From positions 62,001 to 126,000 of the forward strand of contig CALXYO010000005.1 in the NCBI GenBank assembly GCA_944393005.1: a stretch of DNA of 64,000 nucleotides, read 5' to 3'. Under the pieces are notes generated by a model. That model was not told the DNA's origin, made no database searches, and saw nothing but the letters and a program-made list of their open reading frames with translations. Origin of the DNA: an uncultured Spirochaetales bacterium. GTDB taxonomy: Bacteria; Spirochaetota; Spirochaetia; Sphaerochaetales; Sphaerochaetaceae. A program made the position numbers and the translations under genes. Shown one piece after another: positions 53,735-59,290 of this stretch (position 1 is the first letter of the stretch; every line of letters starts with the position of its first letter).

Positions 53735-53959
53735 TCAGCATTCCCTGTCTGCTGTATCATTACAGTGATTACACTTCTGCCTGGCATTTATTTCGGGAAG
53801 GCTTCTTTTTCTGGAAAAAGTCCTTGCATTTGCACTGTCTCTTTCATATACAATGACTTCCTTGAGTCCTTCTTCAATGCCACTGAAAAAGTCAACATTC
53901 TTAAAATTGCTCTCAATTTTCTCAACGCTGTATCCTGATTTGAAAACATGTTCGCTCAT
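53735..53959 (-). pseudogene. Decayed toxin-antitoxin antitoxin (XRE type), N-terminal fragment
   Basis: From ATG 53959 the frame gives about 50 residues in which FFSGIEEGLKEVIVYERDSANARTFSRKRSLPEIN resembles the dimerisation end of HigA-like XRE antitoxins. These normally continue into a helix-turn-helix. Here the frame runs into unrelated Cys/His-rich codons and TGA. In another frame just downstream a faint helix-turn-helix-like remnant (IQQTGNADWSI) is seen. It is probably a frameshifted relic. No toxin gene is adjacent. Confidence 0.45.
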
Positions 53960-54127
53960 ATCATTCCTATTGCTGCATAGTAAGTAATGCATGATCTATC
54001 ATATTCTATAATCTGCATTTTTGCACATCTCCAGAAAGGTTCATCTGACGACCACGATGCCGAGCACAGCAAACTCATACCGTGTCCTACGTGTTATATG
54101 TTCGATGCGACGACGCGACGCGCGCGA
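53960..54127. other. Non-coding stretch ending in CG-rich simple sequence
   Basis: No supported gene is seen here. The last ~30 bases (54097-54127) are a low-complexity run of GCGAC and CGCG units quite unlike the surrounding AT-rich DNA, ending directly at the promoter of the DUF3800-linked RNA. Confidence 0.5.
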
Positions 54128-54157
54128 TTGACGAAATCACTCCTCCCTGTTTATTAT
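54128..54157 (+). promoter_or_regulatory. Strong promoter of the RNA upstream of the DUF3800 gene
   Basis: TTGACG (54128-54133), an 18-bp spacer and TATTAT (54152-54157) match the sigma-70 consensus at ten of twelve positions. Transcription is expected to start near 54164. Confidence 0.7.
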
Positions 54158-54163
54158 AGTAGC

Positions 54164-54277
54164 GCAGGCATATGTTTCTATATGGACTGCTCACCGGCGG
54201 GATGCCAACTTTTTGTTTAAGCGTGCTGTTCTGTACGTGGCCCCGTTGGGAACCTCCCTGTGTGGAGGTTTTTTTTT
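54164..54277 (+). ncRNA. Candidate DUF3800-associated structured RNA
   Basis: A promoter and a perfect intrinsic terminator bracket about 114 non-coding bases ending four bases before the ribosome site of the DUF3800 gene. Possible stems are GGCAT (54167) with ATGCC (54202), GCGTGC (54221) with GTACGT (54233), and a GC-rich CCGGCGGG that could pair with CCCCG (54241) as a pseudoknot. Structured DUF3800 RNA motifs upstream of such genes have been described from comparative genomics. Which class this belongs to, if any, cannot be judged by eye. The start is inferred. Confidence 0.6.
54251..54277 (+). terminator. Terminator between the RNA and the DUF3800 gene
   Basis: AACCTCC-CTGTGT-GGAGGTT is a perfect 7-bp stem followed by a run of T to 54277. 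It ends the short RNA; only read-through would reach the gene that starts at 54291. Confidence 0.92.
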
Positions 54278-54290
54278 GACAAAGGAGATG

Positions 54291-55016
54291 ATGTTTTCTG
54301 TGGATATTTACGTTTATTCTGATGAATCCGGAGTATTTGATTATAAACATAGAAAATACTTTGTCTATGGAGGTTTGCTGTTCATTGACAAAATGACCAG
54401 AGATGAAGCTATCAGACGATACAGGTCCGCCGAACAGAATTTCCGCAAGAAGGCAAAATACAAGAATCTTCCGGAACTGAAAGCAAGCAAGCTTGCACCA
54501 GATGACAGAAGGGACTTATTTAAACTTACATCCTGCTATGACAGATTTGTTTTTGTAATAAACATGAATGCTCTGGATAAACGCAAGACATTTGCTGATA
54601 AGCATTCAAAAAACAGATATTTGGATTGGGCCTATAAAGTCGGATTAAAAAAGGTTTTCCAATCTCTGATTGAACGAGGCAGTATTTTACGAGGAGAACC
54701 TGTAACACTTCATTGTTTTATTGATGAACACTCCACTGCAACAAATGGAATATATGATTTGAAAAATGCAATTTATCATGAGTTTCACGAAGGTACATTA
54801 AATTATCGCTACGATGTATTCCATAAACCAATTCTGCATGATTCCGAACTTGAGGTTACCGTAAAATATGTCAATTCAGAATGTAACGAGTTAATCAGAG
54901 CGGCAGACATTATTGCAAACAGAGCTTTATTTGAAGCGGAAAACAACGCATTGTATAAAATTGCAAGTGATACCATGTGTTTTCGTCTGTTCCCAACCGA
55001 TAAGGAAATCTTTTGA
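54291..55016 (+). CDS. DUF3800 domain protein
   Basis: The 241-residue protein starts with the family signature VYSDESG and continues with YGGLLF, a basic helix, a second acidic site (LHCFIDEHS) and the late ELIRAADIIANRALFE. The aspartates at the start and near residue 215 suggest a metal-dependent RNase H-like fold. DUF3800 proteins are found near mobile DNA and have been suggested to be nuclease-like; function unproven. AAAGGAG precedes ATG 54291. Its AT-rich codons differ from the flanking glycan genes, indicating acquisition. Confidence 0.85.
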   Translation: MFSVDIYVYSDESGVFDYKHRKYFVYGGLLFIDKMTRDEAIRRYRSAEQNFRKKAKYKNLPELKASKLAPDDRRDLFKLTSCYDRFVFVINMNALDKRKTFADKHSKNRYLDWAYKVGLKKVFQSLIERGSILRGEPVTLHCFIDEHSTATNGIYDLKNAIYHEFHEGTLNYRYDVFHKPILHDSELEVTVKYVNSECNELIRAADIIANRALFEAENNALYKIASDTMCFRLFPTDKEIF

Positions 55017-55124: not shown

Positions 55125-55188
55125 AGAAAGACTCAACACACAGCAAAATTCATACTTCTTTAAACATCACTCTTCATGTTATAGTCAA

Positions 55189-58054: not shown

Positions 58055-59290
58055 TTACAGAATACTTCTGGAATACAAAGCAAGCGACTCCTTCTCTTCC
58101 TTTTCCCTGCCGGAATAGAAGGAGATGATTTCTCTTGCTATCTGGCTGAAAGATTTTCCATCCTGCAACTCTTTTGCCATCGCACACTTGAATTCAAAAC
58201 TGTCGGCAATTCTGGATGCAAATGAGAAGAGAGTCGGATCCTGCTCATAAAACTCTCTGACTGAAGCGGTATCAGGCACTTTATCCAGGTGAACAACACC
58301 GGGATCCACAACATTCTCCATGGTTTTCCGCTCTGTCGAATACAGACTCTGTATTCTCACATCAAGCATTGTACAGTAATTCACAACAACCGCACCATCA
58401 TAGAACATGCTGTTGCCGGTATCAAATATCGGAGCAGGACCGATACACTGAAGCGTATTTGAATCTCTCAGCAGACCGAAATTTGCCAGATGCCGGTCTT
58501 TGTTGGTCATAAGGAAATCTGTCATTGCCTGATAATCCAGAAAATTCCGGATGCAGGAAGGATCGGCTCCTTCCTCAGCACAATGCAAAACATACTGCTC
58601 CATATAGGAACTGTTTTTGTCATATCCGTATTTATCAAATATCTCCCAGGCGGGGACAAACTCGACATCATCGCTTGTGAAACACGGCGATATGCAGCCA
58701 ATGGTACCGTCCTTCAGTTTTATCAGCTTATACTCAACATGATTTTCAAATTTCTGTTTCCTGTGAAGCAATGATGCAAACACTTCATTAAGCGACTGCT
58801 GGAAAGAGTTGCCGGGCATGTTTCCCTTGACGAGGAACATCCTGCCTTTCTTTTTTATCCAGCGTTTATCGAGATCACCGCCAAGTGAAGCAGAAGGATT
58901 GTATGATGATCCTACAAAAATGTCAGAACTGTTTCCAGTACTGCTGAAAGGAAGATCATCTTTGAATTCATTCTTATGAAAAGAAATGCTGTCCCATTCA
59001 ATATTGCAGGCCTGAGGACATATCCAGTAACAGTCAGTGACACTCAATGCAAGGTTCTCAAGCAGGAACTGATGCACAGAAGAAATATGATTCTCTCTCA
59101 GAAGCTGCCTTATACCCGACCGTGAAGCCGGTACAGCCCTTCTCTTCCACCAGTGCTCTATATTTGATATATCATGCTGGGCACAAAGTGGAAGCAGTTG
59201 ATGGTTCACTATCTCATTGATCCTGATACCGGACGCGTCACTGCCAGTGATATCTATTACAGCAACTGTGTCATCCTTGTGCTTCAGCAA
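58055..59290 (-). CDS. HipA-like kinase domain protein
   Basis: The 411 residues contain a HipA_C-type kinase fold: the ATP-lysine region RMFLVKGNMPGNSF, the catalytic loop TNKDRHLANFG (N-x-D-R-H-x-x-N) and the metal-binding FDTG. It lacks the usual HipA N-terminal subdomain and has no HipB-like gene beside it. It starts at TTG 59290 with only a distant AGAGG, 26 bp after the Wzi-like gene stop. It may phosphorylate a protein target; toxin or regulatory role unknown. Confidence 0.78.
   Translation of the reverse strand: MLKHKDDTVAVIDITGSDASGIRINEIVNHQLLPLCAQHDISNIEHWWKRRAVPASRSGIRQLLRENHISSVHQFLLENLALSVTDCYWICPQACNIEWDSISFHKNEFKDDLPFSSTGNSSDIFVGSSYNPSASLGGDLDKRWIKKKGRMFLVKGNMPGNSFQQSLNEVFASLLHRKQKFENHVEYKLIKLKDGTIGCISPCFTSDDVEFVPAWEIFDKYGYDKNSSYMEQYVLHCAEEGADPSCIRNFLDYQAMTDFLMTNKDRHLANFGLLRDSNTLQCIGPAPIFDTGNSMFYDGAVVVNYCTMLDVRIQSLYSTERKTMENVVDPGVVHLDKVPDTASVREFYEQDPTLFSFASRIADSFEFKCAMAKELQDGKSFSQIAREIISFYSGREKEEKESLALYSRSIL

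Follow-up and report, generated by a model that had tools for sequence, protein, structure and literature searches.

An RNA–DUF3800 unit in an uncultured spirochaete belongs to a mobile family that may act as an RNA-restrained defence or addiction module

The genome of an uncultured spirochaete (G000; 2.26 Mb, 20 contigs) contains a new member of a named RNA–protein class without explained function. In the window, i.e., the whole 64,000-nucleotide stretch of DNA that was analysed, this unit occupies positions 54128-55016 and consists of a promoter, a structured RNA of the DUF3800-I family, an intrinsic terminator and a gene for a DUF3800 protein (Table 1). Its relatives, when compared, point to a defence or addiction module carried by phages, with the RNA probably holding the protein in check.

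Table 1. Coordinates of the RNA–DUF3800 unit, counted from the first nucleotide of the window.
Feature	Position	Strand	Description
Promoter of the RNA	54128..54157	+	-35 TTGACG 54128-54133, 18-nt spacer, -10 TATTAT 54152-54157
DUF3800-I RNA	54157..54281	+	RF02969 match; predicted transcript ~54164-54279 (about 115 nt)
5' hairpin P1 of the RNA	54164..54190	+	Predicted fold; covariation in relatives (helix 1)
Branched RNA domain	54194..54249	+	Predicted fold; covariation in helices 2-4; conserved core GUUUAAGCG at 54215-54223
Intrinsic terminator	54250..54277	+	8-bp stem 54250-54271; T9 run 54269-54277
Shine-Dalgarno sequence AAGGAG of the DUF3800 gene	54282..54287	+	Read directly from the sequence
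DUF3800 gene, 238 aa, RNase H fold	54300..55016	+	PF12686; start GTG 54300 agrees with homologues

In a covariance-model scan with the Rfam DUF3800 RNA families, a check that the earlier note on this DNA had proposed, RF02969 (DUF3800-I RNA) scored 53.0 bits against a curated gathering cut-off of 44.2, and this is the sole non-tRNA RNA match in the 64-kb window. The locus resembles the class in sequence, structure, position before a DUF3800 gene and possession of its own terminator, and no difference was found. Our own covariance model, R1, gives the window RNA 63.6 bits. The predicted fold has -44.1 kcal/mol versus -31.0 in shuffles (z -3.8). Among 40 RNAs, standard pairs fill 96.3% of the pair cells and 21 of the 28 pairs are altered on both sides; 0 of 500 shuffles reach the observed values. 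The core GUUUAAGCG is near-invariant across the relatives. Thus, the structured-looking RNA of ~114 nt and its link to DUF3800-associated RNA motifs, both put forward in the earlier note, are borne out by the fold, the family match and the covariation in homologous loci. These data support a discrete RNA of ~115 nt that has a conserved, branched fold and is predicted to end at the terminator. A repeat search found no tandem repeats inside the window RNA, as had been said before. The RNAs contain no long variable unpaired stretch that would resemble a guide segment, and proteins that are >80% alike have RNAs differing at scattered sites. Another RNA class, DUF3800-XI, is found in the same genus or family (L026 2081-2130; L015 321-369, the latter match lying just under the cut-off), and L015 additionally has a DUF3800-I RNA.

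The terminator lies directly 5' of the Shine-Dalgarno sequence at the window locus, as the earlier note described, and in most relatives. A simple terminator scan of the region overlooked it, the likely cause being that stem and T-run overlap. The gap between the RNA end and the DUF3800 start is 18 nt, which cannot fit a promoter. The proposal that the protein is made only by read-through therefore suits this locus, but it fails as a family rule, because one lineage places the gene first. The type III-like layout of RNA, terminator and then gene is likewise present in the window. An ATG at 54291 is a possible in-frame alternative start of the DUF3800 gene. In four relatives (L057 3001, L099 1237, L109 3001 and L113 2983) the start codon stands right behind the T-run, so that the Shine-Dalgarno sequence forms part of the terminator hairpin's 3' arm, and at these loci translation may be coupled to termination.

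The surroundings of the unit are only partly as the earlier note had it. The unit does lie between glycan operons, with glycosyltransferase/MptE-like genes on one side and a NeuB sialic-acid-type operon on the other. Its supposed AT-richness applies to the gene body (GC ~0.35 versus 0.45-0.48 in the flanking operons) but not to the RNA (~50% GC). The "antitoxin relic" beside it is not supported: the likely candidate, an 85-aa ORF at 53735-53992 (-), has zero accepted Pfam or NCBIfam matches. A short GC-rich CGACGCGA-like repeat just 5' of the -35 element (54103-54124) is mostly absent from the sister-species alignment. A HipA_C-like protein is encoded at 58055-59290 (-), 3 kb away from the unit and beyond the sialic-acid-type operon; its match (E 2e-4) is under the Pfam cut-off, and it is possibly a kinase toxin relative.

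The association between RNA and gene was examined in 80 loci of DUF3800 relatives, which were picked from public genomes by protein alone. RF02969 is found above the cut-off directly upstream of DUF3800 in 78 of the 78 loci with enough upstream DNA; the remaining two, L079 and L126, have only 32 and 11 nt of upstream sequence. The two-part unit of RNA and DUF3800 gene, as first proposed, is thereby confirmed. Measured in 77 loci, the RNA ends a median of 12 nt before the start codon. Among viral contigs, the RNA is present in 35 of the 36 loci tested, weakly so in L164 (26.7 bits), and the one locus without it, L154, contains no upstream sequence. Wherever neighbouring DNA was present, each DUF3800 gene of this clade was seen with the RNA, and RNA distances correlate with protein distances (Mantel r 0.74). 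By name, the nearest DUF3800 relatives of the window protein come from uncultured Spirochaetaceae and Spirochaetales.

The promoter belongs to this conserved arrangement. The window promoter matches 10 of 12 consensus positions, and promoter-like sites in the region (4 observed versus 6.0 +/- 2.2 in shuffles) are, taken alone, not beyond chance. Across 78 loci, the mean best promoter score is 9.99/12 versus 7.78 in shuffles, and a score of at least 10 is reached in 53 of them versus 3% of shuffles. In most loci, the -35 element begins 28 nt upstream of the RNA model, whose first base is also the last of the -10 element, and this fixed register predicts a transcription start at the base of the first hairpin. 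The near-consensus promoter of the earlier note thus stands, with its position kept across relatives. Promoter and RNA form one fixed cassette. Tandem DUF3800-I RNAs, the older and decayed one first, are found at L043 1051-1328, L013 1430-1630 and L113 2237-2988, the new promoter and RNA following directly after the terminator of the old RNA (L043, L013) or after the decayed gene (L113). In these three loci, the units seem to accumulate at a single site.

The product of the DUF3800 gene matches PF12686 (E 2.1e-10), the only Pfam family above the cut-off. Its AlphaFold2 model is confident (pLDDT 93.6, pTM 0.90), and the best PDB fold match is RNase HII (1eke; E 3e-6, TM ~0.45-0.5), with which it shares a D-E motif near the N-terminus. 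A profile comparison of DUF3800 and RNase HII revealed no sequence relation (hhalign probability 0.3%); sequence homology is therefore not supported and the fold alone is in common. Residues D8, E9, D109, D142 and D203 are invariant among 64 relatives. With this predicted RNase H fold, the protein is probably a metal-dependent nuclease. An RNase H fold of DUF3800 was earlier reported for a CRISPR-linked relative (PMC10910872). A search by sequence for a solved structure of a relative gave none (best E 0.32), and in PADLOC the window protein matches 0 families and its relatives give weak matches only (best E 5e-4). The window protein has no Abi_2 (AbiD/F) match in Pfam, and homology to ToxN, CptN, TenpN or AbiQ is absent, DUF3800 being the sole Pfam match and the fold that of RNase H.

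A separate DUF3800 lineage has the reverse order, gene and then RNA, and occurs in streptococcal phages, Enterococcus, Exiguobacterium and Oscillospirales. In the streptococcal phages Javan73 and Javan110, a Cro/CI-type regulator, DUF3800, the RNA and an IrrE-type peptidase follow each other. The same order is present in prophage plasmids of Enterococcus faecium and Exiguobacterium, in Fructilactobacillus (with a weaker RNA), in further viral contigs and in RNA-found loci of Lactobacillales and Oscillospirales. The gene-first RNAs have their own terminator and their own covariation, and a promoter-like pair is mostly found at the same register, with scores of 7-12/12 (weakest in L267, L222 and L221). 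In the protein tree, a quick version rather than a careful search, all 4 gene-first proteins included group on the same side of one branch (support 100). A second, weak RNA match in L222 (5227-5347, 21 bits) overlaps a cold-shock gene and was taken as chance. An RNA located downstream of the gene, mostly with its own promoter, is a gene of its own and not just a leader, and a leader or attenuator as its sole role is ruled out by this lineage. The gene-first lineage also implies that the RNA must be able to act in trans.

Dependence between the two partners looks one-sided, in that the protein appears to need the RNA and not the reverse. Forty RNA copies were classed from the RNA searches, with search-centre loci excluded: 22 from spirochaetes, 6 from the order of a Blautia genome, 10 from the order of a Lactobacillus genome (including 2 additional copies from an Aerococcus genome that had initially been found through the protein) and 2 from the order of an Oscillospiraceae genome. 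An adjacent DUF3800 gene is intact in 18 of the 40 and broken or absent in 22, a count that is biased upward in part because the gene is ~6 times longer than the RNA, the search demanded good RNAs and some frameshifts are possibly assembly errors. Orphan RNAs that retain all or nearly all of their pairs are common, and of the 17 spirochaete genomes with the RNA, 4 lack any DUF3800 match genome-wide. At the same locus in the sister species G338, the promoter, RNA and terminator are kept and the DUF3800 gene is lost, as indicated by an alignment to the window that stops at 54292 and restarts at 55131; the orphan RNA is 93.8% conserved versus 90.7% for the flanks, and hence hardly better conserved than flanking DNA. 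This one-sided pattern would be expected of a toxin unable to live without its antidote, but it is not proof of one.

The window genome contains a second RNA copy (L002, G000:C4:154297-154418; 49.1 bits) beside a decayed DUF3800 gene. The orthologous site in the sister species (L023, G338:C41) likewise carries a DUF3800-I RNA, with a damaged -35 element, and the gene is deleted there. The Aerococcus genome (G426) has two orphan DUF3800-I RNAs, L278 and L279 (89 and 82 bits with R1), with no DUF3800 nearby, and additionally a third, complete unit. In two Enterococcus prophages (L266, L269) the DUF3800 gene is apparently interrupted and the downstream RNA kept.

A single protein tree mixes Bacillota, Actinomycetota, Sutterella (Pseudomonadota) and spirochaetes, with phage copies scattered among them, and in several related pairs similarity is confined to about the promoter-to-stop unit. 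Phage copies have integrases, endolysins and regulators as neighbours. The unit comes after the lysin or its equivalent in elements of E. faecium, Exiguobacterium and Fructilactobacillus, which is a usual position of phage cargo. In bacterial loci, phage integrase is the commonest neighbour family (9 of 119 scanned). From this distribution, the unit is best described as one that moves between phyla and occupies prophage cargo sites. Only ~14% of the units could share an operon with the next gene, and no clear signal of defence-island enrichment was found beside the relatives. Syntrophomonas wolfei (L060) and Pelotomaculum terephthalicicum (L061) have identical DUF3800 proteins; here the whole 6.6 kb is 95% alike, and a recent transfer of a larger piece is thus possible.

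With regard to layout, the nearest proven analogue is AbiF-Cd/RCd22 of the Clostridioides difficile prophage phi027 (PMC12373285), which combines a sigma-A promoter, an ncRNA of ~100-132 nt, a Rho-independent terminator and read-through with neutralisation in cis and trans (PMC12373285). The DUF3800 unit shares with it the order of promoter, RNA, terminator and read-through gene as well as the phage cargo position. In contrast, AbiF belongs to the Cas13-related Abi_2 family, two repeated motifs occur in its RNA and neutralisation has been demonstrated (PMC12373285), whereas the DUF3800 unit has an RNase H fold and a single branched RNA and is known here from sequence. Membership in AbiF/RCd22-type systems was rejected because the Abi_2 protein is absent. 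ToxIN follows the same logic as AbiF/RCd22 (PMC5772629), and the type III toxin-antitoxins in general (ToxIN, CptIN, TenpIN, AbiQ; PMC5772629) resemble the DUF3800 unit in the order of RNA, terminator and nuclease gene and in the expected RNA excess. Unlike them, the DUF3800 unit lacks RNA repeats and a ToxN-type protein, and its order is reversed in one lineage; despite the terminator between RNA and gene, membership in this group was therefore also rejected. DUF3800 accessories of Cas12a2 (V-A2) and VI-F loci share the DUF3800 domain and the RNase H fold (PMC10910872, PMC12669027), but the Cas12a2-linked proteins have TPR domains and stand beside CRISPR effectors, whereas the window unit is stand-alone with its own RNA. 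A guide-RNA nuclease (OMEGA, CRISPR-like) was rejected, as the RNAs contain no variable guide segment or array. For DUF3800-associated RNAs, PMC10910872 refers to its ref. 59. In the literature searched, which took in neither the 2017 source paper nor preprints, a gene-first order of DUF3800 RNAs was not found, nor was a functional test of DUF3800 in the papers examined that mention it.

An RNA-restrained nuclease, working like the type III toxin-antitoxins or AbiF/RCd22 with an unrelated protein fold and RNA, is the best explanation and is given about an even chance. The fixed promoter would drive a discrete RNA of ~115 nt that is stopped at the terminator, and occasional read-through at the window locus would provide little DUF3800 mRNA, keeping the RNA in excess over the protein. 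The RNA would bind the DUF3800 protein and hold the nuclease inactive, until transcription shut-off or RNA titration, most plausibly on phage infection, frees it. The freed protein would then cut nucleic acid, by which infection would be aborted or loss of the element punished. Such a defence or addiction role is helped by the prophage location, the one-sided dependence and the RNase H fold. The strict linkage, the covariation, the promoter–RNA cassette, the gene-first lineage and the correlated distances likewise favour the model; the lack of a PADLOC family for the window protein, the lack of a clear defence-island signal and the weak conservation advantage of the orphan RNA in G338 count against it. 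The obligate linkage in 78 of 78 loci and the RNase H fold can also be cited for the RNA as a required cofactor or scaffold, RNA and protein together forming an active nuclease particle that lacks a programmable guide, as can the accessory DUF3800 proteins of some Cas12a2 and type VI-F loci. This reading is considered unlikely: an RNA that has lost its protein would then have no use, yet orphans with all or nearly all pairs are common; a guide-like segment is missing, and the RNAs of near-identical proteins differ at scattered sites only.

Orphan RNAs in genomes without any DUF3800 match, together with the nuclease fold, would also agree with a DUF3800 maturase that processes the RNA, the latter being the effector as a regulatory RNA. 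However, promoter and terminator already set the RNA ends, a variable or target-like segment is absent, and patchy occurrence and a phage cargo position are ill-suited to a housekeeping regulator, making this improbable. Slightly more doubtful still is a cis leader only, i.e., an attenuator or a switch of the riboswitch type by which read-through into DUF3800 is adjusted. Although the terminator stands directly before the Shine-Dalgarno sequence in the window and most relatives, and even encloses it in some loci, an entire lineage places the RNA downstream of the gene, where it has a terminator of its own and, in most cases, a promoter at the usual register; the RNA also persists where the gene is gone. 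A selfish or mobile element spread by phages without host benefit is the least probable of all. Its spread over Bacillota, Actinomycetota, Pseudomonadota and Spirochaetota in one tree, the loci that are similar only within the unit and the frequent decay argue for it, whereas the unit contains no internal transposase or integrase and the conserved D/E residues suggest an enzyme under selection for activity.

DUF3800 RNAs comprise several Rfam families without known function, and DUF3800 proteins also occur beside CRISPR effectors. At the level of the family, interest lies in the gene-first lineage, the fixed promoter–RNA cassette and the one-sided dependence, which lead to a specific prediction: the protein is toxic and the RNA is its antidote in trans. 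Tentatively, and with a likelihood somewhat short of even, the family may represent an RNA-antidote class of toxin-antitoxin or abortive-infection systems, with an RNase H-fold nuclease unrelated to ToxN or AbiF and with two gene orders, in which orphan RNAs may protect their hosts against incoming DUF3800-bearing phages or plasmids. If true, RNA-controlled nucleases would have arisen independently in phage conflict yet another time.
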